Origin: Paenibacillus ginsengihumi DSM 21568
GTDB taxonomy: Bacteria; Bacillota; Bacilli; Paenibacillales; NBRC-103111
Assembly: GCF_000380965.1 (NCBI RefSeq)
Contig: NZ_KB905550.1
Span: 62,001-126,000, forward strand
Length of the DNA: 64,000 nucleotides
Direction: 5' to 3'
This document shows positions 11,787 through 25,952 of the stretch, piece by piece. Below the pieces are notes generated by a model. That model was not told the DNA's origin. It was given only the letters and a program-made list of their open reading frames with translations, and did not search any database. Each line of letters starts with the position of its first letter. The first letter of the stretch is position 1. Position numbers and translations under genes: made by a program.

Positions 11787-12991
11787 TGAACGGCTGGAAG
11801 CTGCTGTGGAGAAATATGCTTTACCGCAAGAGCTTGTCGTTGCTTACGATTTTTGCCGTTGCCGTCACGGTTTCCCTGTTCGTTCTGCTGCTGCTCTGCA
11901 AGGACGGATTTGAACGGGGCGCTGCCAACGGATACGGCCCGTTCGAGCTTGTGATCGGTGCGGAAGGCAGCGAATCGCAGCTGGTGCTCAATACGTTCTA
12001 CCGTGCGGGCGCCCCGACCGGCAACATTCCGCTGGAAGTGCTTCAAGCGGTCAGCGAGGAGAATCAGGTGGACGCCGCTTTCGGCATGACAGCAGGGGAT
12101 CATTACAACGGCTTCCCTATCGTCGGCATGGACCCGGCTTATTTTCCTGTCAGGTATGGCGACCGCCACTTGAAAGAAGGCAGGCTGTACGGGCAGCTGG
12201 GAGAAGTGACGCTCGGTTATGCGGCGGCCCAATCGCTGGGCGTTCGCGTCGGCGACCAATTCAGCGGCGCGCACGGATTAATCGGACATCATGAATTGGA
12301 GGAAGAGCACGGCGATCACGAGGAGGATGCGCATGAAAGCTTCAAATATACGGTAGTGGGCGTGCTTCCCAAGCTGAATACCGCCGACGACCGGGCTATT
12401 TTCACGACGATGGATTACGCCTGGGCGGTGCATGACCATCAGCAGGGAGCCAGGGAAGTGACGGCCATTTTGGTCAAGCCGAAATCATTGCTGGGAGCGC
12501 AGTCCGTCAAGCAGAAGTACGATCAATGGGACCGGGTACAAGCGGTTTATACGAGCAAAGCGGTTGCCGATCTATTGAATATGGTAGATACCGGCAGCCA
12601 AATCTTGACGCTTGTCATGACGATCTGCGTATTGCTGGCCGCCTCGTCCCTGCTGCTTTCCTTAACGGCCGCCTTTCACGAAAGAAAAAAGGATATCGGC
12701 TTGCTCAGATTAATCGGCAAATCGAAATCGTATATTTTGCTGACGCTGCTCGGGGAGGGAATGGTGCTGACCGCCGCCGGTCTGGCAGCCGGCTTGCTCG
12801 TTGGGCACGCCGCGGGCTGGCTGATCAGCGAGCCGCTGTTCACGGCGACAGGCATCCAATTGGAAGGATTTCGGCTGTCGGCGAACGAGGTTTATATCAC
12901 TGCGTCCGCGCTGGCTCTCGGCGCGATTGCTTCCATTATTCCTGCAGTGAGGCTGTACCGCGTCGACGCGCAATCGCTGTTTCGCAGCTAG
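11786..12991 (+). CDS. MacB/FtsX-type ABC permease with His-rich extracytoplasmic loop
   Basis: Permease of 401 aa with the type VII ABC layout: TM1 at residues 16-36, a large external domain to about 265, then three membrane helices (about 270-293, 325-350, 370-390). Residues 163-183 of the external domain hold six His and many Glu/Asp (pattern HGLIGHHELEEEH then GDHEEDAH), a likely metal-binding loop. Similar His-rich permeases occur in zinc-linked gene sets such as V. cholerae zrg. The substrate is not known; zinc or another divalent metal is my inference. The Zn-dependent phosphatase lies just upstream. Confidence 0.8.
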   Translation: MNGWKLLWRNMLYRKSLSLLTIFAVAVTVSLFVLLLLCKDGFERGAANGYGPFELVIGAEGSESQLVLNTFYRAGAPTGNIPLEVLQAVSEENQVDAAFGMTAGDHYNGFPIVGMDPAYFPVRYGDRHLKEGRLYGQLGEVTLGYAAAQSLGVRVGDQFSGAHGLIGHHELEEEHGDHEEDAHESFKYTVVGVLPKLNTADDRAIFTTMDYAWAVHDHQQGAREVTAILVKPKSLLGAQSVKQKYDQWDRVQAVYTSKAVADLLNMVDTGSQILTLVMTICVLLAASSLLLSLTAAFHERKKDIGLLRLIGKSKSYILLTLLGEGMVLTAAGLAAGLLVGHAAGWLISEPLFTATGIQLEGFRLSANEVYITASALALGAIASIIPAVRLYRVDAQSLFRS

Positions 12992-13034
12992 GCGCAGATA
13001 GCGAGCGCAGCCTTCGTTCGGGCGCCGCCTGCGT

Positions 13035-13285
13035 GGTGACAATTGGGCCGGCGGATTACCGCCAAATTTTCGGGAAGAGACGCCTATGCCGCTGGCGCAG
13101 CACCATCAAATGGTGAAAATGGGCTGCCCGCCCTGGGGGGCTATTTTCAAGATAGACGCCCATGCCGCCGCACGGCACCATCAGATGATGAAAATGGCCG
13201 CGGCGTACCAAGCGCTATTTTCAAGATAGACGCCCATGCCGCTGGCGCAGCACCATCAGAAGGATGAAAGTGGGCTGGGGGCCCG
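13035..13285 (+). repeat. Tandem 74-bp repeat array, block 1 left
   Basis: Three diverged units start at about 13065, 13141 and 13215, recognised by CTATTTTCAAGATAGACGCC, then CACCATCAGA, then GATGAAAATGG. The preceding 30 bp (GGCGGATTACCGCCAAATTTT) resemble the 3' end of the 89-bp unit at 14221. No gene with a ribosome site is seen in this stretch. Confidence 0.85.
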
Positions 13286-13294
13286 GGGTCATGA

Positions 13295-13544
13295 TAGCAA
13301 ATGTTGTATTTTGTACAACAAAAACGGGGAAATAACCCGCATTCGCGGCTCAATGTTGTATTTTGTGCAACATTTCGAGCGATGTTTCCGGTTTTGAAGC
13401 CAATCGCCTCTAAATTGTTGCACGAAATGCAGCATTTCCCTTCATTTTGTGCGAAGGGGGCGGAAAATGTTGCATTTTTTGCAGGATTTGTCGCCCCATG
13501 TGCCCGAGTCTGCCCGGGGAAGGGCCGCGCTAACGCGGAACTCG
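13295..13544 (+). repeat. 250-bp TGTTG element, copy 1
   Basis: Aligns to 23672-23921 over exactly 250 bp with no net gap. It contains a hairpin made of TGTTGTA and TACAACA separated by TTTTG, and further TGTTGCA / TGCAACA words. A reading frame opens at 13301 in both copies but has no ribosome site, so I annotate it as a repeat rather than a gene. Confidence 0.8.
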
Positions 13545-13750
13545 CACTATACCACGGATTTCGCACGCTAATGTGGAGTCCGAACGCTGGCGCGGGTTTC
13601 GGGGGCCGCCGGCTGAGCATATCCGTCGCAGTAAAGGATAGATTTGCGCAATATAGGGCCATTCCGAAGGCAAGGTTTTCTCAGCGTTTTCAGAAAAGCT
13701 GCCGGAAGGATCAAGTAACAATAAAGCGTTAAAGTGTTAAATTGAGGCGG
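13545..13750. other. Unique spacer inside repeat block 1
   Basis: About 200 bp absent from block 2. I see no ribosome site, hairpin or recognisable gene here. Confidence 0.4.
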
Positions 13751-13868
13751 GGCCTTCCGTACCAGGCAAAACTGCCGCTCAAGCGCGCCCGCTCATCCGT
13801 TGAATGTGCTTCGATCGAAGCTTCTCTTCATGCTCGCCAGCCTAGGGTGCAGTTTTGCCGGGCAGGCC
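13751..13868. repeat. Inverted repeat enclosing about 75 bp
   Basis: GGCAAAACTGC at the left end (13764-13774) and GCAGTTTTGCC at the right end (13849-13859) are perfect complements, with outer GGCCT and AGGCC arms. Only the right arm sequence persists, altered, in block 2. Confidence 0.6.
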
Positions 13869-14090
13869 TTAAGCTAACGCTAGCCACAGAGCTTATTTCC
13901 CTCGAAATCATCGATTTGAAATTGAACGCAAGTGAGCAGCCTTATTTGGCATTTTGGGCTGCCAGATTCAGCGTTTTTGACAAAATAGCGCTACCAGCCT
14001 GCGTTACATTTTTCAAAGGCAGCATTTCATCAAAATAGCGTTTGTCACTGGCGTTAGAAATTCGGAAGCTTCGGCAGGAGCGCAGGAAGG
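13823..14090 (+). repeat. GCTAACG module, copy 1
   Basis: Aligns to 23939-24197, starting with TCTCTTCATGCTCG and ending with GCTTCGGCAGGAGCGCAGG. Internally it has CTAACGCTAGCC, GAGCTTATTT, AGTGAGCAGCCTTATTTGGC and AAAATAGCG words. It is noncoding by appearance. Confidence 0.8.
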
Positions 14091-14165
14091 GACGGTTCAG
14101 GAAGAAGCAGCTGTTGAAATGAACACGGCTTGAGGTTTGTTGGAATATTTTTCAATAAAGACATC

Positions 14166-14410
14166 CTGCCATGTGTGGCACCATCAGAAGATGAAAATGT
14201 GCCGCCCGCCCTGGGGGGCTATTTTCAAGATAGACGCCTATGACGAGCGCTTCCTGCCGTCATCGGTCATCACCTGCGGTATTGAAATTTTGTCGGCGGA
14301 TACCGCCAAATTTTCAAGATAGACGCCTATGACGAGCGCTTCCTGCCGTCATCGGTCGTCACCTGCGGTATTGAAATTTTGTCGGCGGATACCGCCAAAT
14401 TTTCAAGATA
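14166..14410 (+). repeat. Right-hand repeats of block 1: partial 74-bp unit plus 89-bp tandem duplication
   Basis: A partial 74-bp unit (CACCATCAGAAGATGAAAAT onward) runs to 14220. Two 89-bp units follow, 14221-14309 and 14310-14398, nearly identical (one substitution seen), and the start of a third (ATTTTCAAGATAG) merges into the ribosome site of the lipoprotein gene at 14421. Confidence 0.9.
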
Positions 14411-14420
14411 GGAGGTAACA

Positions 14421-15332
14421 ATGAAGGCGAACAAAGTGATATGTGCGGCGTTCTTGCTCATTGCTGCTGGCGTCGCCGGCGGCTGCGGCACCCGGCAAAC
14501 GCACGATGAGGGAGGAACATTCGCCGCCGCGCAGGAGCAACTGCCGGCAGAGCCGGTTCAAGCCGCTTCATCCGCTGCGCCTGGCCTGTTAGCGGCCAGC
14601 GAGGCTGCCGGGCAATCGCCGAAGGGAGCAAGCCAGGCTGCCGGCAGCGGCAATGCGGCAGAGGCTCAGGCGCGGCCGGATGCTCAAGCCGTGCCTGCCG
14701 CTGCTGCGCAGGCCGCCCCGGCAGCAGACGCGGCCTCGCAAGAGTCAGCCGCTCCGCCCGCTTCCGCGGCAGAAGAAGCGCCGCCGAAGTCATCGGCTCT
14801 GCCCGCTGCCGCGGCCGGTGCAGCGTCTGCAGCCGCCTCCGCGCACGCCGGAGCGGCTCCTCCCGGCAGCGAGCAGGCCGCCGCCGCGCTGCCGCAGGAA
14901 GCGGCGAAGCCGGACGGCGCCGCTGCGGAGAACAGTTCCGCGCAAGCGAACCATGCGGGGCATCCTGTCATCAAATGGTCGGAGTTTTTTGACGATGACA
15001 TGCAAATAGCCCCCTCCAGCAAATTTTGGGATTTGTCGGAGCAGCAGAAAACCGTGGAAATAAAAGGCTTCATGGGAGAGGTTCTGTCTTTTGAGAAGCG
15101 CTGGTTTCTGCTCATTCCCGAGCCGGGCGCGGAATGTCCGTTCGACAATGGAGATGAGACGTACTGGAACAAAATCATGATCGTTTTTGTCCCGAACGAG
15201 ACGAAGCTGCGCTATACATCGGGGCCGTTAAAGGTAACGGGGCGGCTGGATGTCGGGATCAAAGTGGATGAGTCAGGGTATAAAACGATGTTCCGTCTAT
15301 ACGATGCATCCTTCGAAAAAATCAAGGAGTAA
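14421..15332 (+). CDS. Lipoprotein with Ala-rich linker and DUF3299-like C-terminal domain
   Basis: Surface lipoprotein of 303 aa. The signal ends at Cys22 (GVAGGC). Residues 30-175 are an Ala/Ser/Pro/Glu low-complexity linker with no fold expected. Residues 180-303 form a compact domain: KTVEIKGFMGEV, WFLLIPEPGAECPF, IMIVFVP, GPLKVTGRLDVG and FRLYDASFEKI. This pattern resembles DUF3299 proteins, some of which sit with zinc-linked ABC genes in proteobacteria; the match is from memory and not certain. GGAGGTAAC at 14411 fixes the start. It is 1.4 kb from the His-rich permease, across repeat block 1. Confidence 0.7.
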   Translation: MKANKVICAAFLLIAAGVAGGCGTRQTHDEGGTFAAAQEQLPAEPVQAASSAAPGLLAASEAAGQSPKGASQAAGSGNAAEAQARPDAQAVPAAAAQAAPAADAASQESAAPPASAAEEAPPKSSALPAAAAGAASAAASAHAGAAPPGSEQAAAALPQEAAKPDGAAAENSSAQANHAGHPVIKWSEFFDDDMQIAPSSKFWDLSEQQKTVEIKGFMGEVLSFEKRWFLLIPEPGAECPFDNGDETYWNKIMIVFVPNETKLRYTSGPLKVTGRLDVGIKVDESGYKTMFRLYDASFEKIKE

Positions 15333-15459
15333 AATTCCAATGCAGTAAAATGAATGCAACATTATTGGCGCTGCCCTCGTCTATGGAGCTGAACGGCCGG
15401 AGGCAAGTGTCCGGCGTTCGCCATATTTCCAATGGCTATAACAGACAGGGGGCGAAGCG

Positions 15460-16509
15460 ATGGAAAGCAGACGGATGGCGGAGCAGACAGACGGCGGCCG
15501 ACGGCCGGCGGGAGGCCGCGCCGCGAAGCTCGTGCGGGCGCTTATCGCCGCTGCGCTTGCTATGGCGCTGGCTAGCGGCTGCAGCGCGGCGGGAACATCG
15601 GGGGCGGCAGAGCAGGCGGCCTCCGGCCGCGCCGCAGATTCGGCCGGCAAGTCGCTCGGCGCGGCAAACGGCAACGCCGCGGCCCTGACCGTGGCGCCGA
15701 GAGAAGGCGGCGTGACGCCGGTTTCGGCAGCGGCGGGACAGGAAGCCGAGCGCAAAATCATTTACGAGGCGGAGCTATCCATGACGTCGGGGGATTATGC
15801 GGGGACCGTGGTCAGCATCCAGGAATCGGTGCGCCAATGGGGAGGCTACGTGCTGCAGTTCCATGAAAGCTCCGGCTCAGTGAACAAAAGCGGCACCTTC
15901 GTCATCAAGGTGCCGGCGCAAGGTTTCGATCCGCTGCTGGCGGAGCTGGAGAAGCTCGCTCCCTTGGACAGCAAATGGATGAGGGGAGAGGACGTCACGG
16001 AGGAGTTCGTCGACCTCGAGTCCCGCTTGAAGGCGAAGCAGGCGGCGGAGGAGCGGCTGCTTGAGTTTATCGGCAAAGCCTCCAAAACCGACGAGCTGGT
16101 CGCCTTCTCGAACGAGCTGGCCAAGGTGCAGGAGGACATTGAGGCGCTGAAGGGCCGGATGCGTTATTTGGAGCAGAATGTCGCCTACTCGACGATCCGG
16201 CTCAGCCTGAAGCAAAAGGTCGGTTCGGCGGAGGCGCTCCAGGCGCCGGGGCGCGAGCCGCTTGCGCAAAGGGCGTCCGAAGCGCTGCAGGGCACGCTGG
16301 CGGTGCTGGCGTTCTTGTTCGAAGGGCTTGTCGTCATCGTCGTCGGGGCGCTTCCCGTGCTGGCGCTGCTGTTGCTCATCCTCGCTTCTCTCTGGCTGTG
16401 GCGGCGCAAGCGCAGGCAAAAGCTGCGAGACATCCGGGACCGGCTGGCAACCGAGAACCGGCTTGCGGCGGACGACGGCAGCGAGGCGAACGAGCAAGCG
16501 CCGCGATGA
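15460..16509 (+). CDS. DUF4349-family membrane lipoprotein
   Basis: 349 aa. A long basic N-terminus and hydrophobic segment end in a lipobox at Cys41 (LASGC). An Ala-rich linker follows, then the DUF4349 domain ([14 protein letters not shown] through [15 protein letters not shown], residues about 100-250) containing a coiled-coil ([15 protein letters not shown]), then a C-terminal membrane helix ([23 protein letters not shown] cut here to its core) and a basic cytoplasmic tail. DUF4349 proteins have no established function; envelope sensing or anchoring is only a guess. The start has GGGGG at 15448. A strong terminator follows at 16616. Confidence 0.85.
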
Positions 16510-16612
16510 CGAGCGTCTGTTCACGCATTGCCCGACCGCGGGCTGGAGCCTGCGGATGCGGCCGATCATGGAAAGCTTCATGCATAACCTTGTCGGAAAA
16601 ATCAGCCTGCGG

Positions 16613-16653
16613 AAAAATCCTGCTGAAGACGAAGCGCTTCAGCAGGATTTTTC
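16613..16653 (+). terminator. Terminator before mraZ
   Basis: AATCCTGCTGAAG at 16616-16628 pairs perfectly with CTTCAGCAGGATT at 16637-16649, flanked by A-rich and T-rich tracts, so it could work in both directions. It insulates the division cluster from the lipoprotein genes. Confidence 0.9.
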
Positions 16654-16680
16654 GTTTGTTCGCCGAATTTTTACTGTACA

Positions 16681-16720
16681 AGTGGAGGAAAGTGGGGTAA
16701 AGTGGTGGGAAAGGGGTGAC
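16681..16720 (+). promoter_or_regulatory. MraZ operator: four 10-bp direct repeats
   Basis: AGTGG occurs at 16681, 16691 and 16701, with a degenerate AAGGG at 16711, each one helical turn apart, immediately before mraZ. MraZ is known to bind G-rich direct repeats with 10-bp period at its own promoter, so autoregulation of the cluster is the natural reading. Confidence 0.75.
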
Positions 16721-16726
16721 CAGTGG

Positions 16727-17164
16727 ATGTTCATGGGGGAATATCAACACACCATCGACGAGAAAGGCCGAATGATCATTCCGGCCAAATTTCGCGATGC
16801 CCTCGGAACATCGTTTGTCGTCACCCGTGGCTTGGACCAATGCTTGTTCGTGTATCCGATGGATGAGTGGGCGGTGCTGGAGAAGAAGCTGAAATCGCTG
16901 CCGCTGATGAAGTCGGACGCCCGCGCCTTTACCCGCTTTTTTTTCTCGGGAGCGACGGAGTGCGAGCTGGACAAGCAGGGGAGGGTGAACATCCCGAAAA
17001 ATTTGGTCGAGCATGCCAAGCTGGAGAAGGATTGCGTCGTGATCGGGGTGTCCAACCGCGTGGAGATTTGGAGCAAGGCGATCTGGGAAAGCTATTCCCA
17101 GCAATCGGAGGAATCGTTCAGCGAGATCGCCGAGAAGCTCGTAGATTTCGATTTCGACCTCTAG
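16727..17164 (+). CDS. mraZ: Transcriptional regulator MraZ
   Basis: DNA-binding SpoVT/AbrB-fold regulator of the division and cell-wall cluster, 145 aa. Two MraZ repeats are seen: [19 protein letters not shown] and [18 protein letters not shown], each with the DxKGR/DKQGR motif. The start MFMGEYQHT matches the B. subtilis protein, with GGGG at 16713-16716. It probably represses or tunes the downstream genes through the repeats just upstream. Confidence 0.95.
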
Positions 17165-17255
17165 AAAGCTTGGCCGCCGGACCCGTTCTTTGCAGCGACC
17201 GGTTCACAAGTGTCATAAGGTCGAAAGCCGACAGCCGGGAGGAGCCTGAAGAGAG

Positions 17256-18215
17256 ATGTTTCATCATGTAACCGTATTGAAGCAAGAGGCCGTGGAAGGA
17301 TTACATATAAAGCCTGATGGAATTTACGTCGACTGCACGCTGGGCGGGGCCGGACACAGCAGCGAGATCGCTTCCCGGCTCAGCCTGGACGGGCTGCTCG
17401 TCGCGTTCGATCAGGACGAGATCGCACTCAAGCACGCCCGCGAGAGACTGGCCCCGGCGGGCGAGCGGGTTAAGCTCGTGCGCAGCAATTTCCGCTATCT
17501 CGAGGAGGAGCTTAGAGCCATTCCTGCAGCGATGAAGGAAGGGCGGCCCCAGGTTGACGGCGTACTGTTCGATCTCGGGGTATCGAGCCCGCAATTGGAC
17601 GAGGCGGAACGCGGCTTCAGCTACAACCATGACGCCGAGCTCGATATGCGCATGGACCGTTCTTCCGAGCTGACGGCGAAGGCTGTCGTGAACGAATGGC
17701 CGGAGCGAGAGCTTGCCCGCATATTGCACGAATACGGCGAAGAGAAGTTCGCCCGGCGAATTGCCGCCCGGATCGTTGAGGCGCGCAGGATGAGGCCGAT
17801 CGAGACGACCGGCGAGCTGGTCGAATTGATCAAGGAGGCGATCCCGGCTGCGGCGCGCCGCACGGGCCCTCATCCGGCCAAGCGCAGCTTTCAGGCGATC
17901 CGCATTGCGGTCAACGATGAGCTGGGCGCCTTCGAGGATGCGCTGGAGCAGGCGATACGCTGCCTGAAGCCCGGCGGACGCGCCGCCGTTATTACGTTCC
18001 ATTCACTGGAGGACCGCATTTGCAAGCAGACGTTCGCCAAATATACGGAGCGTTGCACGTGCCCGCCGGATTTTCCGGTTTGCGTCTGCGGGCGGCATGG
18101 AGTCGTAAAGCTGGTCAACCGCAAGCCGATCGAGCCGGGCCCGGAGGAGCTGGAGGCGAACCCGCGGGCCCGCTCCGCAAAACTGCGCATTGCCGAGAAG
18201 CTTCCGGAGCGGTGA
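17256..18215 (+). CDS. rsmH: 16S rRNA (cytosine1402-N4)-methyltransferase RsmH
   Basis: Methylates N4 of C1402 in 16S rRNA using S-adenosylmethionine; 319 aa, the usual length. The SAM-binding motif is [10 protein letters not shown] near residue 26, followed by the family motifs [24 protein letters not shown] and [14 protein letters not shown], and a Cys-rich [13 protein letters not shown] near the C-terminus. It is second in the mraZ cluster, 91 bp after mraZ. Confidence 0.95.
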
Positions 18216-18279
18216 ACGGCACCGCCCCGGTCTCGTCATCTTCTATACTAAACTACCGCCAAAGGAGGATTTACGCCCA

Positions 18280-18705
18280 GTGCCAGCCTATATTCAAGGA
18301 AACTTAGCCGTCGAACAGAAAAGCAAGGGGGACAAACGCCCCAGCTACAAGGAAACCAGGAAGGTTGTCGTCAAGACCAAAACGCTGCCCGTGCAGGAAA
18401 AATTGCTGTATTTGTTTACGGTTATCGTGTGCGTGCTGGTAGCAAGCGTCATTATTTGGCGGTATGCGCAAATCTATGAAATGAATTCTGCCATTCAAAA
18501 AATACAAACAGAGATTAACAACTTGGAAGCGGAGAACCGAATCCTGAAGCAGAAAATCGACGAATTGGCGGACCCGAGAAATCTGGAAAACCAGGCCAGA
18601 GCATGGGGGATGACAACGCCGCAGCAGGAGCAATCCAATTCCGCAGGCGGCCGCAATTCCGTCGCTTCGTCTGCGCAATCGACCAAATCGAAAGATCGTC
18701 CCTGA
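18280..18705 (+). CDS. ftsL: Cell division protein FtsL
   Basis: Bitopic divisome protein of 141 aa. A cytoplasmic tail of about 45 residues rich in Lys is followed by one membrane helix (LLYLFTVIVCVLVASVIIW) and an external leucine-zipper coiled coil (IQTEINNLEAENRILKQKI). It forms the DivIB-DivIC-FtsL complex that controls PBP2B. The start is GTG 18280 behind AAAGGAGG at 18261-18268; the open frame extends further back but overlaps the rsmH end. Assigned by position and topology since FtsL sequences diverge. Confidence 0.85.
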   Translation: MPAYIQGNLAVEQKSKGDKRPSYKETRKVVVKTKTLPVQEKLLYLFTVIVCVLVASVIIWRYAQIYEMNSAIQKIQTEINNLEAENRILKQKIDELADPRNLENQARAWGMTTPQQEQSNSAGGRNSVASSAQSTKSKDRP

Positions 18706-18753
18706 CCCTGGCCAGAAAGTCCGAAGTTGAATCACGGGGGAGGTATTGCAGCG

Positions 18754-21177
18754 ATGGTCAGAAGGATCAAGCTACGTTCCATGCTGCTCGGGGGGGTATT
18801 CACCCTCCTTTTTGTCATTTTGGTAGGCAGATTGTATTGGGTGCAGGTGGTCCAGGGCGCCGAGCTGCTCGTTCAGGCCCAGGAAAAATGGGAGGTCGAC
18901 AAGCAGCTGACGGCGGTTCGCGGCTCCATTCTGGATCGCAACGGCAAGGTGCTGGCGGAAGACGCCCCGGCGTTTACCGTAGCGCTAACTCCCAAGCTGA
19001 TCAAAGATTACGGGCTGGAGGACGAGGTCGTTCGCAGCCTGGCCTCGTTTCTTCGCACCTCCGACGATCCGGCGGCGCAGGCCGAGCTGGAGAACAAAAT
19101 CCGCAAGCGCCTCAGCAGCGGCGCGGGGCAGGTGGAGATTCGCAACGAAGGCTGGAAAATCGACAGCGCGAAAGCAGCGGAGATTCGCGAGTGGGTCAAA
19201 AAATTAAAGGAACAGGTCAACGCGAAATGGAGCATCGGCATTTTGCTGATCGAGGAGCATAAGCGCTACTACCCCGGCGGCTCACAAGCGTCGCACGTGA
19301 TCGGCTTCAGCGATAAGGAAGGCAAGCCGATCATGGGCCTGGAGAAGCAGCTGGACAATTATTTGAAGGGCACGGACGGTTTCCTGCGCTACGGCCGGGA
19401 CCCGAACGGCGTCGAGCTGCCGGACACCGAGGTTAAGTACCAGGCGCCGGTCGACGGCAGCAACGTGAAGCTGACGATCGACAAGAACATCCAATTTTAT
19501 ATAGAGAACGCCTTGAAAAAGGTGTACGAGAAATACAACCCGAAAAGCATCATGGCCATCGCGCTCGATCCGAAGACGATGGAGGTGCTCGGGATGGCCA
19601 ATCTGCCGACGTTCGATCCGAACAAATATTGGGAGATGAAGGACGGCAGCACGGTAAACCATGCCGTCGCGTCCCAGTACGAGCCGGGCTCGACATTCAA
19701 GCTCGTCACGCTGGCCGGCGCCGTGGAAGAAGGCTTGTTCAATCCGGGGGAGAAGTTTCAATCCGGCTCCATCGTCGTAACCGGGGAGAAGCTTCACGAC
19801 CATAACCGGGTAGGCTGGGGGCGTATCGACTATCTGGAAGGATTGAAGCGCTCCAGTAACGTGGCGTTCGTCAAGCTCGGCTATGAAAAGCTGGGAATGG
19901 AGAAGCTGCGGGAATATATCGACCGGTTCGGCTTCGGCGCCAAGACGGGCATCGATCTGCCGGGCGAGGTCGGGGGGATCGTGAACATGCGGTATCCCGC
20001 CGAATTCGCGACGGCCACCTACGGCCAAGGCTTGACGGCGACGGCGATCCAGCAGGCGGTCGCCTATGCGGCGATCGCCAACGGCGGCCTGTTGATGAAG
20101 CCCCACGTCGTCAAGGAAATCGTCAACCCGCAGACCGGCGAGGTCGTCTATAGCAGCAAGCCGGAAGTCGTTCGCCGCGTCGTGTCGGAGCAGACGGCCA
20201 AGCAGGTGGGCGAACTGCTCGAGCAGGTCGTCGCCGACCAGCAGATCGGCACGGGCAAGAAGGCCGCGATCGAAGGCTACCGCGTTGCCGGCAAGACGGG
20301 GACGGCGAACAAGGTCGTTCCCGGCGTCAAAGGGTACGCCGAAGGCAAATGGGTCATTTCCTTTATCGGTTATGCTCCTATTGAAGATCCGCGCATCGTG
20401 CTGGCGATCATCGCCGACGAGCCGGATCTCGGCAACAATTATCATTTGGGCGGGGACGTTGCGGCCCCGGCGTTCAAGGAGATCGTCTCGCAGACGCTTC
20501 GCTACATGCGCGTGCCGTCCACGGTGACGGAGCAGCAGCGGCAGACGGCGGAGCAGGCGTCCCGCACGGTCGTTCCGGAAATGACGGGCATGACGCTGGC
20601 GCAGGCGAAACAGGTCGCTTCCCAATACGGCATCGAAGTCGAAGCGATCGGCAAAGGAGACAAGGTGCTCGCCCAATCTGTGCAGGCAGGTACGAAAATC
20701 GCCGTTGACCAGCGAATGTATGTAGTGATGCAGAACGACGGCGAAGTGACGCCGCCCAACCTGACAGGCCAATCGCTGCGCGATGCGATCGCCGTATGCT
20801 CGCTCGCCAAGCTGCGCTGCGAATCGACCGGCGAAGGCTATGTCGTCTCGCAGACGTTGGAAGGCGAAGGAAAAGACCGGGTGCTGAGGCTGCAGCTTAT
20901 GCCGTACAACGAGATCGAGGCGGCCGGAGGATTCGAGAAAGCCGCCGCCGCACTTGCCGCTGCGGCATCAAGCGGCAAAGACGCGGCGCAGCAGGACGAT
21001 TCATCCGGGAAAGACGACTCCCGGTCAAGCGGCGCAGGCGGCAAGGACGAATCCCGCCAGACGGGCGCGTCCGGCGACAATGAAGCGCGCCGCGATGGAA
21101 CGTCCGGCAGCAGGAGCGAACAGGGCGTTGGCAGCGAGAGCAGCAACACGGCAGAGAACGGTGCCGGCAATAGCTAG
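18754..21177 (+). CDS. pbpB: Penicillin-binding protein 2B (division transpeptidase)
   Basis: Septal class B PBP of 807 aa: N-terminal membrane anchor, dimerisation domain (residues about 55-230), transpeptidase with Ser313 in STFK, SSN at 367-369 and KTG at 514, then two PASTA repeats (about 605-720). The tail of about 75 residues is rich in Gly, Ser and Asp. Start MVRRIK at 18754 follows GGGGGAGG. The TAG stop lies inside the low-complexity tail: the same frame continues 37 sense codons of similar composition to a TAA at 21289-21291 (see findings). Confidence 0.93.
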   Translation: MVRRIKLRSMLLGGVFTLLFVILVGRLYWVQVVQGAELLVQAQEKWEVDKQLTAVRGSILDRNGKVLAEDAPAFTVALTPKLIKDYGLEDEVVRSLASFLRTSDDPAAQAELENKIRKRLSSGAGQVEIRNEGWKIDSAKAAEIREWVKKLKEQVNAKWSIGILLIEEHKRYYPGGSQASHVIGFSDKEGKPIMGLEKQLDNYLKGTDGFLRYGRDPNGVELPDTEVKYQAPVDGSNVKLTIDKNIQFYIENALKKVYEKYNPKSIMAIALDPKTMEVLGMANLPTFDPNKYWEMKDGSTVNHAVASQYEPGSTFKLVTLAGAVEEGLFNPGEKFQSGSIVVTGEKLHDHNRVGWGRIDYLEGLKRSSNVAFVKLGYEKLGMEKLREYIDRFGFGAKTGIDLPGEVGGIVNMRYPAEFATATYGQGLTATAIQQAVAYAAIANGGLLMKPHVVKEIVNPQTGEVVYSSKPEVVRRVVSEQTAKQVGELLEQVVADQQIGTGKKAAIEGYRVAGKTGTANKVVPGVKGYAEGKWVISFIGYAPIEDPRIVLAIIADEPDLGNNYHLGGDVAAPAFKEIVSQTLRYMRVPSTVTEQQRQTAEQASRTVVPEMTGMTLAQAKQVASQYGIEVEAIGKGDKVLAQSVQAGTKIAVDQRMYVVMQNDGEVTPPNLTGQSLRDAIAVCSLAKLRCESTGEGYVVSQTLEGEGKDRVLRLQLMPYNEIEAAGGFEKAAAALAAAASSGKDAAQQDDSSGKDDSRSSGAGGKDESRQTGASGDNEARRDGTSGSRSEQGVGSESSNTAENGAGNS

Positions 21178-21291
21178 GCGAACGAATCCGCAACGAAAGA
21201 CGCCGGGACCGGAAATTCCAGGACCAACGATACGACAAACAACGATTCGAAGAACAACGGCTTAATCCGCATAGGCGGCAAGACGCCTTAA
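21178..21291 (+). other. In-frame tail extension after the pbpB amber stop
   Basis: Continuing the pbpB frame past TAG 21175-21177 gives 37 codons rich in Asn, Thr, Asp and Ser, ending NNGLIRIGGKTP and TAA. This looks like former coding sequence cut off by a nonsense change, or a readthrough extension; it has no ribosome site of its own. Confidence 0.5.
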
Positions 21292-21398
21292 CCGAATATC
21301 CGAAAGTGCGGCGAACCGGACAGCTTGTTCTAACCCCTGGTTGTCCTGAATAGGCATGATAAGGAACGATCTGCTTGTTCAGGAGGGAGCGAACGGTC

Positions 21399-23348
21399 AT
21401 GAAGGCATCGAACGTCACGGTTCGCCGCCGTTTATTTGCCGCATTGGTTGTCGGAGCGATTCTATTCTTGGCGCTGGTAGTTCGCCTCGCTTATGTGCAG
21501 ATTTGGATGGGGCCGAGATTGTCCCAGGAAGCGGAGGACAACTGGCGCCGCAATATACCGGTCACCGCCAAGCGCGGCGAGATTATCGACCGCAACGGCG
21601 TAAAGCTGGCGTACAATGTCAGCACGCCGACCGTCATGGCGATCCCGGCCCAGGTGAAGGACGCCGAAGCGACAGCCGCCCGCTTGGCCGATGCGCTGCA
21701 GATGGATGCGGACAAAGTGCTGGGCATGATTACGAAGCGGGCGTCCAGCGTGTATATCAAGCCCGAAGGGCGGAAAATTTCCCAGGAAAAGGCCGAGGAA
21801 ATCCGCGCGATGGGGCTGCCCGGCATCGTCGTGACCGAGGACAACAAGCGTCACTATCCGTTCGGCGAGCTGGCGGCGCACGTTCTCGGCTTCACCGGCA
21901 TTGATAATCAAGGGCTTACGGGCATAGAATCAACATATGACGACCTGCTGACAGGCATTAACGGCAGCATCTCCCGGCTGACCGACGCCAGCGGCAGGGA
22001 GATGCCGAATTCGACAAGCAAATATACGAAGCCTCAGGACGGGTTGAATCTGCAGCTGACGATCGACAGCCATCTCCAATCGATTCTGGAGCGGGAGCTT
22101 GATCAGGCGATGGTCAAATATCAGCCCAATCATGCGATCGCCATCATGATGGACCCGAACAACGGCGAAATTTTGGCGATGGGGGCGAGACCGGGGTACG
22201 AGCCGGGCAATTTCCAGGCTTATCCCGTCGAGAATTACAACCGCAACCTGCCGATCTGGATGACGTACGAGCCGGGCTCCACCTTCAAGATCATCACCTT
22301 GGCGGCGGCGCTGCAGGAGAACAAGGTGAACCTGAACGAATCGTTCTACGATCCCGGCGCGATCGAGGTGGCCGGGGCCCGGCTCCGCTGCTGGAAACGG
22401 GGAGGGCACGGGAGCGAGACGTTCCTGCAAGTTGTCGAAAATTCGTGCAACCCGGGGTTCGTCGTCATGGGCGAAAGGCTCGGGAAAGAGAAGCTGTTCG
22501 AATACATTCACAATTTCGGCTTCGGCAAAAAGACGGGCATCGATCTCGGCGGCGAAGAGAACGGCATCCTGTTCAAGCCGTCGCGCGTCGGTCCGGTGGA
22601 GCTGGCGACGACCTCCTTCGGCCAAGGCGTATCCGTCACGCCGATTCAGCAAATTACGGCCGTCTCTGCAGCGATTAACGGCGGGAAGCTCTATAAGCCG
22701 CATGTAGGCAAGGCCTGGTATCATCCGGAGACCGGCCAGCGGCTCGGGACGATGGAGCCGGAGCTGGTGCGGCAGGTCATCTCCGAGGAGACGTCCAGGA
22801 AGGTGCGCGAGACGCTCGAGAGCGTCGTCGCCAACGGCACAGGCCGCAACGCCTTCATCGACGGATACCGCGTCGGAGGCAAGACAGGGACGGCGCAGAA
22901 GGTGGTAAACGGCCGCTACTCCGCAAGCGAGCACATTGTCTCGTTTATCGGCTTCGCTCCGGCGGACGATCCGAAGGTGGTCGTATATGCCGCGGTGGAC
23001 AATCCGCAAGGCATCCAGTTCGGCGGCCTGATCGCCGCTCCGCTGGTAAAAAATATTATGGCCGACGCCCTGAGCTACATGGGGGTCGAACCGCGCAAGG
23101 AGCAGCTTGACCGCAAGTACGTGTACGGGGATACGCCGATCGTCGAAGTGCCGAACATGGTTGGCATGACGGTAGCGGATATATACGAGAGCCTGAACAT
23201 GAACTTCAACCTGGCCAAATCCGGCGCGGGCAAATATGTCGTCAACCAGGTGCCCAAAGCAGGCAGCCGCGTGGAGCGGGGCTCCACGATCCGCATCTAT
23301 TTGTCGGATGCGGAGCCGCCGCAGCAGCCGGAAGGCCATTCGCCGTAA
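21399..23348 (+). CDS. spoVD: Stage V sporulation protein D (spore cortex transpeptidase)
   Basis: Class B PBP of 649 aa that makes cortex peptidoglycan in the mother cell. It has an N-terminal anchor, dimerisation domain, Ser294 in STFK, SCN at 349-351, KTG at 495, and one C-terminal PASTA domain (EVPNMVGMTVADIYESL onward). The SCN variant and the single PASTA domain fit SpoVD rather than a second PBP2B. AGGAGGG at 21381 fixes the start at 21399. It normally abuts murE, but here a 1.1-kb repeat block intervenes. Confidence 0.92.
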   Translation: MKASNVTVRRRLFAALVVGAILFLALVVRLAYVQIWMGPRLSQEAEDNWRRNIPVTAKRGEIIDRNGVKLAYNVSTPTVMAIPAQVKDAEATAARLADALQMDADKVLGMITKRASSVYIKPEGRKISQEKAEEIRAMGLPGIVVTEDNKRHYPFGELAAHVLGFTGIDNQGLTGIESTYDDLLTGINGSISRLTDASGREMPNSTSKYTKPQDGLNLQLTIDSHLQSILERELDQAMVKYQPNHAIAIMMDPNNGEILAMGARPGYEPGNFQAYPVENYNRNLPIWMTYEPGSTFKIITLAAALQENKVNLNESFYDPGAIEVAGARLRCWKRGGHGSETFLQVVENSCNPGFVVMGERLGKEKLFEYIHNFGFGKKTGIDLGGEENGILFKPSRVGPVELATTSFGQGVSVTPIQQITAVSAAINGGKLYKPHVGKAWYHPETGQRLGTMEPELVRQVISEETSRKVRETLESVVANGTGRNAFIDGYRVGGKTGTAQKVVNGRYSASEHIVSFIGFAPADDPKVVVYAAVDNPQGIQFGGLIAAPLVKNIMADALSYMGVEPRKEQLDRKYVYGDTPIVEVPNMVGMTVADIYESLNMNFNLAKSGAGKYVVNQVPKAGSRVERGSTIRIYLSDAEPPQQPEGHSP

Positions 23349-23434
23349 GGCACGAGGGCGCTGCTGGCGGGAGCGCCGCCGGCTCGCCCCGCCCAAGGGG
23401 CGGGGCTGACACCATCCCGCTGCGGCGGGCCGCG

Positions 23435-23668
23435 CTTTTTGCAAAATAGACGCCCATGCCGCTGGCGCGGCACCATCAGAAGAGGAAAATGGGCCGCAGC
23501 CCTGGGAGCTATTTTCAAGATAGACCCCCATGCGGCTTGCGCGGCACCATCAGATGGTGAAAATGGGCCACGGACACCGGGCTATTTTCAAGATAGACGC
23601 CCATGCCGCCTTGCGCGGCACCATCAGAGGATGAAAATGGGCTGCGGGACCGGGGCTATTTTCAAGAG
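23435..23668 (+). repeat. Tandem 74-bp repeat array, block 2 left
   Basis: Units begin at about 23435, 23509 and 23582 with a partial one at 23656 (periods 74, 73, 74). Each has TTTTCAAGATAGACGCCCAT or a variant, GCGCGGCACCATCAGA and GATGAAAATGGGC. Homologous to 13065-13285. Confidence 0.9.
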
Positions 23669-23671
23669 AGC

Positions 23672-23921
23672 TAGCAAATGTTGTATTTTGTACAACAAAA
23701 ACGGGGCAGTAACCCGAACTCGCGGCTCAATGTTGTAGAAAGTGCAACATTTCGGGCGATATTCTTCGATTTGAAGCCAAACTCGCCCAAATTGTTGCAC
23801 AAAATGCAACATTCCCCTTCCTTTTGTGCGAAGGGGGCAGAAAAAGTTGCATTTTTTGCAGGATTTGTCGCCTCATGCGCCTGGGTGTGCCTGGGGAGGG
23901 ACCGCGCTAATGCGGAGCTCG
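23672..23921 (+). repeat. 250-bp TGTTG element, copy 2
   Basis: Gap-free partner of 13295-13544 with about 36 substitutions across the shared reading frame. The same TGTTGTA / TACAACA hairpin is present. Confidence 0.8.
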
Positions 23922-23938
23922 AACGCTGACGTGGAGCG

Positions 23939-24197
23939 TCTCTTCATGCTCGCTAGTCTAGGGTGCTGTTTTGCCTGGGCTAACGCTAGCCAGAGAGCTT
24001 ATTTAGCTCGAAACGATCGTTTTGACATTCTAACGCAAGTGAGCAGCCTTATTTGGCATTTTGAGCTACCCGATTCAGCGTTTCTGGCCAAATAGCGTTA
24101 CGACGTTTCGTTACATTTTAAAAAAGGTACGATTCAGCAAAATAGCGTTTGTCACGATCGTTAGAGATTTGGAAGCTTCGGCAGGAGCGCAGGAAGG
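23939..24197 (+). repeat. GCTAACG module, copy 2
   Basis: Partner of 13823-14090, same order and strand, 9 bp shorter. It lacks the left arm of the inverted repeat seen in block 1. Confidence 0.8.
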
Positions 24198-24213
24198 GGC
24201 AGCGAGCCCCGGG

Positions 24214-24390
24214 CTATTTTCAAGATAGACGCCCATGCGGCTTGCGCAGCACCATCAGAGGATGAAAATGGGCCACGGACACCGGGCTATTTTCAAGATA
24301 GACGCCCATAACGAGCGCTGAATCACGTCATCGGCCGTCGCCTGCGATGCTGAAAATTTGCTGGATATCATCGTCAAATTATCAGAATAG
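24214..24390 (+). repeat. Right-hand repeats of block 2
   Basis: One 74-bp unit (24214-24286) and then a diverged form of the 89-bp unit (from 24287: TAGACGCCCATAACGAGCGC, GTCATCGG, CGTCAAATTATCAGAATAG). The order matches the right end of block 1. Confidence 0.8.
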
Positions 24391-24393
24391 GGC

Positions 24394-24422
24394 TTTTCAC
24401 GCCGCGTTTTTTTGTCCATAAT
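24394..24422 (+). promoter_or_regulatory. Putative sigma-A promoter of murE
   Basis: TTTTCA at 24394-24399 and CATAAT at 24417-24422 with a 17-bp spacer, 34 bp before the murE start. It begins where the repeat block ends, so murE probably has its own promoter after separation from spoVD. Confidence 0.5.
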
Positions 24423-24455
24423 AGATACCATGTCTGAAGAAGGGGAGGGGACCTT

Positions 24456-25952
24456 ATGCAGCTGAAGGAGCTGGCATCCCAGCTTGCGGTTTGCCGCTTG
24501 ACCGGCGACGGAGATACGGAAATTTCCGGCATCCAATTCGATTCGCGGCGCGTCCGTCCCGGAGATCTGTTCGTGTGCGTGTCCGGAAAGCCTGGCATTC
24601 GGGACCGTCATGAATTCGCCCGGCAGGCCGTTCTGCAAGGCGCCGCCGCGCTTGTCGTCGAACGCGACGTCGAGGCGGAGGTCCCCAAATTGTACGTAAA
24701 GGACGGATGGCGCGCCCTGGCGGAGCTGTCCGCCCATTTTTACGGTTATCCGAGCGAGCGCATGAAGCTGATCGGCGTGACCGGAACGAACGGGAAAAGC
24801 ACGACGACCTCGCTCATCGAACAAATGCTGGCGAGCTGCGGCATGAAGACGGGATTGATGGGCACGGGGATCACCAAGATCGGTTCCCGCACGCTGAGCA
24901 CGGCCGGCACGACGCAGGACGCCAACGATTTGCAGAAGCATCTGCGGGAGATGGCCGATATCGGCACCGAGTATTGCGTGATGGAAGTGTCCAGCCACGC
25001 GCTGGAGCTCGGCAGAGTGCATGGCGCAAGATTTCGCACCGCCGTCTTTACGAATTTGACGCAGGATCATCTTGATTTTCACGGCACGATGGAGCGCTAC
25101 CGCGCCGCCAAGGGAATGCTGTTCGAGCGGATGGACAACGCCTTCGCCAGCGTGCCGGAGCGCCGCCAGTTCGCCGTGCTGAATGCGGACGACGACGCTT
25201 CTGCCGTGTACGCTGCAAGAACTGCCGCCCAGCTCGTGACTTACGGCATCGAGCGGCCGGCGGACGTCCGCGCCGAGCGGATCGCGCTGACCGCACGCGG
25301 CACCCGATTCCGCTGCGCGACGTTCCGCGGGGCGGCGGACATCGAGATGAAGCTGGTCGGCCGCTTCAATGTATACAATGCGCTGGCGGCCATCGCCGCC
25401 CTGCTGGGGGAAGGGATCGCGCTGGAGCGAATCGCCGCCGCCCTGGCGCAGGCCTCCCCGGTCGAAGGGCGAATGGAGGTGGTCAGCGCCGGCCAGCCCT
25501 TCCTCGTGCTCGTCGATTACGCGCATACGCCCGACGGGCTGGACAACGCCTTGACGGCGATCCGCCAGTTTGCCGAAGGCCGCGTCTATTGCGTCTTCGG
25601 CTGCGGCGGGGACCGCGACCGCACCAAGCGCCCGCGGATGGGCGAGACGGCGGCCCGGCTGGCCGATTATTTGCTCGTCACCTCGGATAATCCGCGGAGC
25701 GAGGACCCGGAAGCGATTCTCCGCGATATCGTGCCGGGCATCGAGCGGGCAGGTCTGCCGCCGGACCGGTACGAGCTGGACGTTGATCGGCGCAGCGCAA
25801 TTCAAAAAGCGATTGATCGGGCGGCCCCGGGCGATGTAGTATTGATTGCGGGGAAAGGACACGAGACGTATCAGGAAATCGCCGGAGTGAGGCACGAGTT
25901 CGACGACCGTCTCGTCGCCAAGCAAGCGATAAGGGGAAGATATCATGATTAA
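24456..25952 (+). CDS. murE: UDP-MurNAc-L-Ala-D-Glu:meso-DAP ligase MurE
   Basis: Adds meso-diaminopimelate to the cytoplasmic peptidoglycan precursor; 498 aa. The ATP loop GVTGTNGKSTTTS is near residue 108, and D411-N-P-R is the signature of DAP-specific rather than Lys-specific enzymes. GGGGAGGGG precedes the ATG. It overlaps murF by 8 bp. The DAP specificity agrees with the patA, dapL and dapH genes at 51-54 kb. Confidence 0.96.
   Translation: MQLKELASQLAVCRLTGDGDTEISGIQFDSRRVRPGDLFVCVSGKPGIRDRHEFARQAVLQGAAALVVERDVEAEVPKLYVKDGWRALAELSAHFYGYPSERMKLIGVTGTNGKSTTTSLIEQMLASCGMKTGLMGTGITKIGSRTLSTAGTTQDANDLQKHLREMADIGTEYCVMEVSSHALELGRVHGARFRTAVFTNLTQDHLDFHGTMERYRAAKGMLFERMDNAFASVPERRQFAVLNADDDASAVYAARTAAQLVTYGIERPADVRAERIALTARGTRFRCATFRGAADIEMKLVGRFNVYNALAAIAALLGEGIALERIAAALAQASPVEGRMEVVSAGQPFLVLVDYAHTPDGLDNALTAIRQFAEGRVYCVFGCGGDRDRTKRPRMGETAARLADYLLVTSDNPRSEDPEAILRDIVPGIERAGLPPDRYELDVDRRSAIQKAIDRAAPGDVVLIAGKGHETYQEIAGVRHEFDDRLVAKQAIRGRYHD

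Follow-up and report, generated by a model that had tools for sequence, protein, structure and literature searches.

Intergenic repeat arrays in a Paenibacillus genome that probably derive from the ends of IS110-family elements

The window, a stretch of 64,000 nucleotides from Paenibacillus ginsengihumi DSM 21568, corresponds to positions 62001-126000 of contig C3 in a draft genome of 5.68 Mb and 144 contigs. Two noncoding blocks lie in it, block 1 at 13035-14410 and block 2 at 23435-24390. A first-pass annotation made from the letters alone had described them as composites with one module order, and that order is real: both blocks are present at these coordinates, profile HMMs return the common order D/A, B (the TGTTG element), X1, X2, C (GCTAACG), A, D, and it recurs elsewhere in the genome. 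Tandem Repeats Finder gives periods of 75 at 13078-13273, 89 at 14221-14411 and 74 at 23430-23667.

Block 1, with all features on the + strand, opens with three A units: 13080-13155, running from the left end ACGCCTATG to the right end ATTTTCAAGATAG; 13156-13229; and 13230-13297, with a degenerate right end. These are followed by the B element with its TGTTG palindromes (13299-13515, boundaries approximate). The GCTAACG module reported next is present, but it is not a single module; it resolves into X1 (about 13529-13728), X2 (about 13729-13872), which contains the previously noticed inverted repeat (13762/13849), and C (13873-14058), a 186-bp near-palindrome with ends GCTAACGC and GCGTTAG. 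A degenerate A unit (14162-14233) and two D units (14234-14322 and 14323-14411) complete the block, the last of them abutting the ribosome-binding site that serves the gene at 14421. Block 2, likewise on the + strand, holds A units at 23450-23523 (left flank GCAAAATAG), 23524-23596 and 23597-23670, B at 23676-23893 (boundaries approximate), X1 and X2 as remnants only (23900-23978), C at 23979-24165, and then, about 50 nt 3' of C, an A/D-type right end, CTATTTTCAAGATAG (24214-24228), adjoining a fourth A unit (24229-24301) and a D unit (24302-24390). It stops directly 5' of the murE promoter region; the first-pass annotation had each block end at the promoter or ribosome site of a + gene. Neither block contains a transposase, and no target duplication is visible beyond an ATAG seen by eye on both sides of block 2, again as first described.

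The murE site provides a view of the locus without the block. Matches from a MurE scan, which are named but distant relatives and were used for the murE spacer alone, have Paenibacillus piri as the best named relative among the matches listed (64% identity; very near genomes are possibly omitted). Seventeen of the 27 relative murE loci were readable, the rest being shown on the other strand or being second MurE-like matches. In all 17 the promoter region GGCTTTTCA..TTTTTGTCCATAAT is conserved (with the spelling GTACATAAT in two) and the block is absent from the 240 bp shown. The block of the window lies between GCAAAATAG and GGCTTTTCA, and ATAG stands at the insertion point in only 4 of the 17 readable spacers.

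The repeats extend far beyond the window. A unit-junction pattern, TTTTCAAGATAGACGCCCATG, allowed up to three mismatches, matches this genome 160 times on the forward and 131 times on the reverse strand, as compared with 0 for the reversed control, so that module order and junction pattern are not due to chance. A profile search of 657,026 bp (whole contigs C1 and C2 plus 140 kb of C5) found 94 D, 26 A, 17 B, 21 C, 20 X1 and 23 X2, together 3.2% of that sequence; scaled to the genome, this extrapolates to roughly 812 D, 225 A, 147 B, 181 C, 173 X1 and 199 X2, i.e. about a thousand A/D units. A modular noncoding family reaching past the window, as the first-pass annotation had suspected, is thus borne out in the form of genome-wide intergenic repeat families. 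When parts of C3, C4 and C12, picked because copies are present there, were added to give 841 kb, 154 A/D units of at least 25 bits fell into 85 arrays (gaps of at most 45 nt), 43 of which have two to five units; by the difference of these two counts, 69 of the 154 units lie within 45 nt 3' of another unit. Single A/D units are found in differing flanks. Many contigs of the draft start or stop within these repeats (e.g. C5:1, C28:1, C51:1, C13:1, C69:1 and C97:1).

Related genomes account for the A unit. Of 24 other genomes in the genus, 10 contain short matches to its core; there, a longer element present in several copies begins with the core and has an open frame of 406 aa (486 aa when extended upstream), which encodes an IS110-family transposase (PF01548, E 2e-39; PF02371, E 3.5e-24). 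The left end of such elements in sibling species corresponds to the first 45 nt of A, and their right end to its last 13 nt (ATTTTCAAGATAG); the A core is 91% identical to IS110 left ends over 46 nt in two genomes (E 4.4e-12 and 8.1e-12). A family-wide search for the core matched 23 of 104 genomes, this one included, in 7 of 22 genera, with a best E above 1e-5 in 11 of the 23 and with several matching just an inner segment of 27-36 nt. Among 17 copies compared, the relatives' transposase is unbroken from end to end in 8 (six from G016, plus L334 of G022 and L346 of G006) and broken, truncated or diverged in the remaining 9. The right end, ATTTTCAGGATAG or ATTTTCAAGATAG, was found in 9 of 18 rows (L334, L335 twice, L336, L339, L340, L341, L343 and L346), not in the other 9, and also in L344; its pattern, ATTTTCA(G/A)GATAG, is the right end of both A and D. 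In G016, two full copies 1579 bp apart meet at a junction ATTTTCAGGATAG-ACAACCATG, which is the layout found between A units. L335 and L336 of that genome are tandem pairs of identical full IS110 elements, in which the second adjoins the right end of the first and the target guide is mismatched there; the donor guide may have permitted this insertion.

Between left end and transposase, these elements have a noncoding region that is conserved in nine sequences apart from one varying loop, and a covariance model of it (R2) matches 14 of 25 genomes of the genus. The varying loop, CCGnnnnnTAGAC, acts as a candidate target guide: it matches the sequence directly left of the insertion, as in L346 (G006; target TTTCTATGTAG, guide CCGCTATGTAG), in L402 and L403 (G006; target TTGATAAG, guide GTTGATAAG) and in G016 (targets TTTATTAG/CTTATTAG, guide CCGTTTATTAG). 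Guide and insertion-site flank agree at 102 of 189 positions as compared with a permuted mean of 59.4, and none of 20,000 permutations scored as high; this count began from 38 rows, of which 3 that lacked a left end and 8 with duplicate flanks were removed, and the 27 distinct flanks that remain are not independent trials, since copies that share a guide are related. Two rows, L334 and L401, were read at the wrong place yet kept, which lowers the score. A second count gave 60 of 102 against 39.1 (17 rows). Guide and flank disagree in a G016 tandem copy (0/7), L419 (0), L413 (1) and L338 (2). A second, donor loop holds CA(G/A)GATAGAATAACC; its agreement with the right end covers 8 nt in L334 (CAGGATAG) and L346 (CAAGATAG) and 7 of 8 in G016, with one base differing in L343. 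In 35 of the 38 guide-RNA-bearing copies the left end is recognisable and an A-like core stands between flank and noncoding region; because differing, mostly guide-matching flanks stand on its left, the core is inside the IS. Judged from these alignments, the relatives' IS110 elements carry a predicted bridge-RNA-like guide matched to the insertion site; passages of PMC11208160 describe a target loop and a donor loop in bridge RNAs.

The step from a full element to a unit of A size also has a parallel among relatives. We found 16 end-only copies, in which the left end is joined to the right end in 57-61 bp without a transposase, in five genomes of four genera: L348 (two) and L351 in G020, L350 in G015, L381 in G029, L366, L367, L369, L370, L371, L372 and L373 in G112, and L376-L379 in G117. 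The four copies of G020 and G015 are identical. In G112, L366 forms a tandem with the left end of a longer copy, which reaches the noncoding region and then leaves the contig; in G117, the end-only copies share a flank type, AAATA.AGTnTTAG, with the guide-RNA-bearing L374 and L375, whose transposase genes are broken. An intact cognate transposase was accordingly not seen in the genomes with end-only copies. Five of the G112 copies (L367, L369, L370, L372 and L373) continue 3' into a shared stretch, with a second right end about 290 bp further on in L367 and L369, and may be parts of a longer non-autonomous composite element. Near L375 (G117:C213), whose transposase is truncated after 47 residues, a second IS110 transposase, 40-49% similar, lies on the other strand, possibly as a nested insertion.

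The D unit is probably a sister of A, a miniature unit of IS110 type, to judge by its sequence. The two share the right end, the junction, the start GACGCC.ATG with its stem and a TGAAAAT..ATTTTCA pairing, and D occurs in the same arrays and orientation as A. Its right end is identical to the IS110 type and its layout alike; its left end was not found in the relatives, and D matched none of 59 other genomes (70 candidates scored in each, under strict filters). With a hand-made structure and 34 of 44 distinct units, D has a covariation score of 0.129 versus 0.088 (sd 0.008) for shuffled alignments, a value that none of 500 shuffles and none of the six slid versions reached. The tail arms of D fold at -10.4 kcal/mol with their own partner and at -8.1 when swapped, whereas those of A hardly covary (-12.8 own, -12.3 swapped, sd 0.25). 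Single-sequence folding of seven stretches placed three A units and one A reverse strand among their shuffles (z 0.08 to -0.33), the D unit at z -2.1 and two B stretches at z -5.8, that of block 2, and -4.9. RNAalifold returned poor consensus structures for A1 and A2, probably owing to alignment gaps.

Taken together, the homology of both A ends to IS110 members, the guide-target match in relatives and the end-only copies lead us to propose, with a probability of roughly 0.78, that A, and probably D as well, belong to the IS110 family as miniature non-autonomous elements that were moved in trans, with self-targeting giving rise to the arrays. The units have no DEDD transposase (PF01548 plus PF02371), which the relatives' elements with the same ends do have; A keeps the ends and has the interior deleted, as in the 16 end-only copies. 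By this account the transposase gene and bridge RNA would have been deleted, leaving a left end of about 45 nt and a right end of about 15-30 nt, and a recombinase and bridge RNA made elsewhere would recognise the joined right and left ends as donor; passages of PMC11208160 report that a bridge RNA can act on a 22-bp donor when it is provided separately from the ends. The units would insert at short targets ending in AG, and where the target equals their own right end, new copies would enter at the ends of resident copies and build head-to-tail arrays. B-X1-X2-C, often directly behind an A/D right end, could then have been carried along by the arrays or have passed from one to another by recombination. 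Mobilisation in trans, which had been offered as one possibility at the outset, is thus plausible; no movement was observed. The odds are lowered, for this reading and for the bolder one below, because the guide-RNA-bearing copies beside end-only ones have a broken or incomplete transposase.

The flanks of the arrays are consistent with such targeting. The bases 5' of the first unit have the consensus GATAG (70 of 85 arrays after anchoring, repeated flanks removed). Among the 57 flanks without an upstream right end, 24 agree with GATAG in at least four of five positions and 34 end in AG, compared with 1.4% of intergenic positions and a background of 5.4%, respectively. GATAG could be the target or part of the left end; the relatives' guide matches and the murE site favour the target. 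Since GATAG equals the right end, insertion beside resident copies would be expected, and with it head-to-tail arrays. A cognate transposase or bridge RNA was not found in the draft genome: the R2 model has no match there (124 of 176 candidates scored), and neither has the motif of the noncoding region (NCR). Three PF01548 matches are present, on C26 (full length, 35% identical to the relatives' transposase), C21 (26%) and C85 (contig ends); we rejected them as drivers, as no A/D units lie around them and their noncoding ends are, by eye, unlike A or D. A driver could lie in unassembled sequence, given the contig ends inside repeats, which also mean that copy numbers and the absence of a driver call for a long-read assembly. 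A bolder version, to which we give even odds, is that these are RNA-guided miniature transposons, end-only donors moved in trans by a bridge-RNA recombinase in which target guide and donor guide were the same, so that they inserted into themselves, formed head-to-tail arrays, multiplied to about a thousand copies and persisted after their driver was lost.

What is unusual is the form and number of the parts, which in themselves are ordinary IS110 ends. Terminal inverted repeats, a defining feature of classical MITEs, are typically absent from IS110 elements, and none were seen by eye in the A/D unit alignments. The units resemble IS110 elements with a bridge RNA or seekRNA (IS621 and relatives) in their ends, in AG at both junctions, in the lack of inverted repeats and in a sequence-specific target; they differ in consisting of ends alone (about 73-90 bp here, 57-61 bp in relatives), in their very high copy number and tandem arrays, and, unlike the IS110 relatives in the genus, in having neither a transposase nor a guide-matched noncoding RNA. 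Like the MITEs of other IS, they are short, noncoding, non-autonomous and intergenic and have ends in common with an autonomous IS, but they lack terminal inverted repeats, a target duplication is not evident, and their driver would be a DEDD RNA-guided recombinase. With REP/BIME sequences they have in common that hundreds of small, partly palindromic repeats lie between genes, some in arrays; in contrast to REP/RAYT systems, there is no Y1 transposase in the genome and the ends belong to IS110. The BOX element of pneumococci is likewise a modular intergenic repeat with one module in variable number. A review of prokaryotic MITEs does not name IS110, and has IS1111 as an element inserting into a MITE (PMC10969869); nor are end-only IS110 families described in passages of PMC11187229, PMC10969869, PMC3718332, PMC11578231, PMC9769881 and PMC1525189. 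Miniature IS110 arrays have no description in the literature searched, a body that leaves most subscription papers and all preprints outside, and the titles listed on repeats of Paenibacillus, Bacillus cereus and Cohnella include nothing on the A/D family.

Bridge-RNA recombinases are under development as programmable DNA writers. If our reading is right, donors of 57-90 bp, with no enzyme or guide of their own, were amplified to about a thousand copies in one genome; they would exemplify minimal donors in the wild, offer many natural target and donor sites, and yield a testable rule, namely that a target guide equal to the donor guide leads to arrays. It also suggests that small intergenic repeats without inverted repeats elsewhere may be IS110 derivatives missed by MITE searches. 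The first-pass annotation had held that confinement of the modules to this stretch, or their being remnants of a known IS, would speak against a new family: the former is not the case, and as to the latter, A and probably D are end-only derivatives of IS110.

The alternative that survives best, and which we regard as a tentative possibility, is that the composite blocks owe their spread chiefly to homologous recombination, or to segmental copying from one ancestral block, and not to transposition of its parts. The same-strand order D/A-B-X1-X2-C-A/D at several places speaks for it, as do several loci in which homology runs across the B-X1 junction, but parts also occur alone, single A/D units have differing flanks, and the copy number and target consensus of A/D are left unexplained. 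It may hold for the B-X1-X2-C cassette, for which copying of whole composites by recombination, a route the first-pass annotation had allowed for, is likely rather than proven.

A function for the units as 5'-leader elements, acting as RNA or DNA and maintained by selection beside promoters and ribosome-binding sites, is unlikely. None of 47 arrays lies within predicted genes, and in spacers between same-direction genes 28 arrays are parallel and 10 antiparallel (gene prediction had a coverage of 0.72-0.83 and missed the gene at 14421, and gene distances are rough). TATAAT-like boxes are enriched in the 20 nt 5' of arrays (12 versus 3.6 expected), and the structure of D is conserved and covarying. 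The antiparallel arrays weaken a pure leader reading, however: both orientations exist, and for 13 of the 47 arrays the next gene is not in array direction. End-only IS110 copies explain the ends and the arrays, and an intergenic bias is expected of any tolerated insertion. On the opposite strand, TATAAT-like boxes number 9 versus about 1.8 at 10-20 nt past the array 3' end. The enrichment just 5' of A/D arrays, seen in C1, C3, C4 and C12, hints that insertion prefers promoter regions or that the target overlaps -10 boxes.

It is most improbable that the units are REP-like host repeats merely used as IS110 targets: IS110 members do insert into REP sequences, according to passages of PMC1525189 and PMC11208160, and the units are intergenic with palindromic parts, but the A-like core lies inside the IS, the end-only copies carry both ends joined, and PF01797, the RAYT (Y1) transposase family, which 5 of 14 control genomes match, has no match in this genome. 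A known structured RNA or group II intron was rejected, as Rfam gave nothing above threshold for 12000-25000 of the window (three matches with E up to 1, all outside the blocks and below the gathering score) or for L334, L343 and L346.

We return to the favoured account, of A and D as miniature IS110-type units, to set the remaining modules apart from them. The blocks are modular, as first described, but they are not one element: they combine arrays of such units with B-X1-X2-C, which on sequence grounds appears as a repeated, ordered cassette of palindromic repeats distinct from A/D. Within the 841 kb, the full order A/D-B-X1-X2-C is found in four further clusters (C1 68582, C1 183420, C4 161068 and C5 95083), and another six preserve three or more consecutive module types of it. 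In 106 clusters, the 26 B are preceded by A (11), D (5), C (1) or nothing (9), and followed by X1 (12), X2 (2), A, C or D (1 each) or nothing (9); X2 is followed by C 11 times. Exceptions include C-B-X1 (C2 6711) and B-C-X2 (C5 11669), along with a few strand changes. Because each module also occurs alone (7 B, 6 C, 8 X2 and 2 X1), B, C, X1 and X2 are separable. B has several short palindromes and strong folding, and by eye about 10 of 16 B copies begin 2-6 nt 3' of an A/D right end. The cassette spans 13299-14058 and 23676-24165 in the two blocks and, with an A/D right end some 50 nt after C in block 2, may in its own right represent a longer non-autonomous element, one bounded by a right end of IS110 type. 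A resident full-length IS110 of another subfamily (L330, G000:C26:32534-35971) adjoins GGAAAATGTTGTATTT, which resembles one end of B, and B-like palindromes may be the target of IS110 elements of this type.
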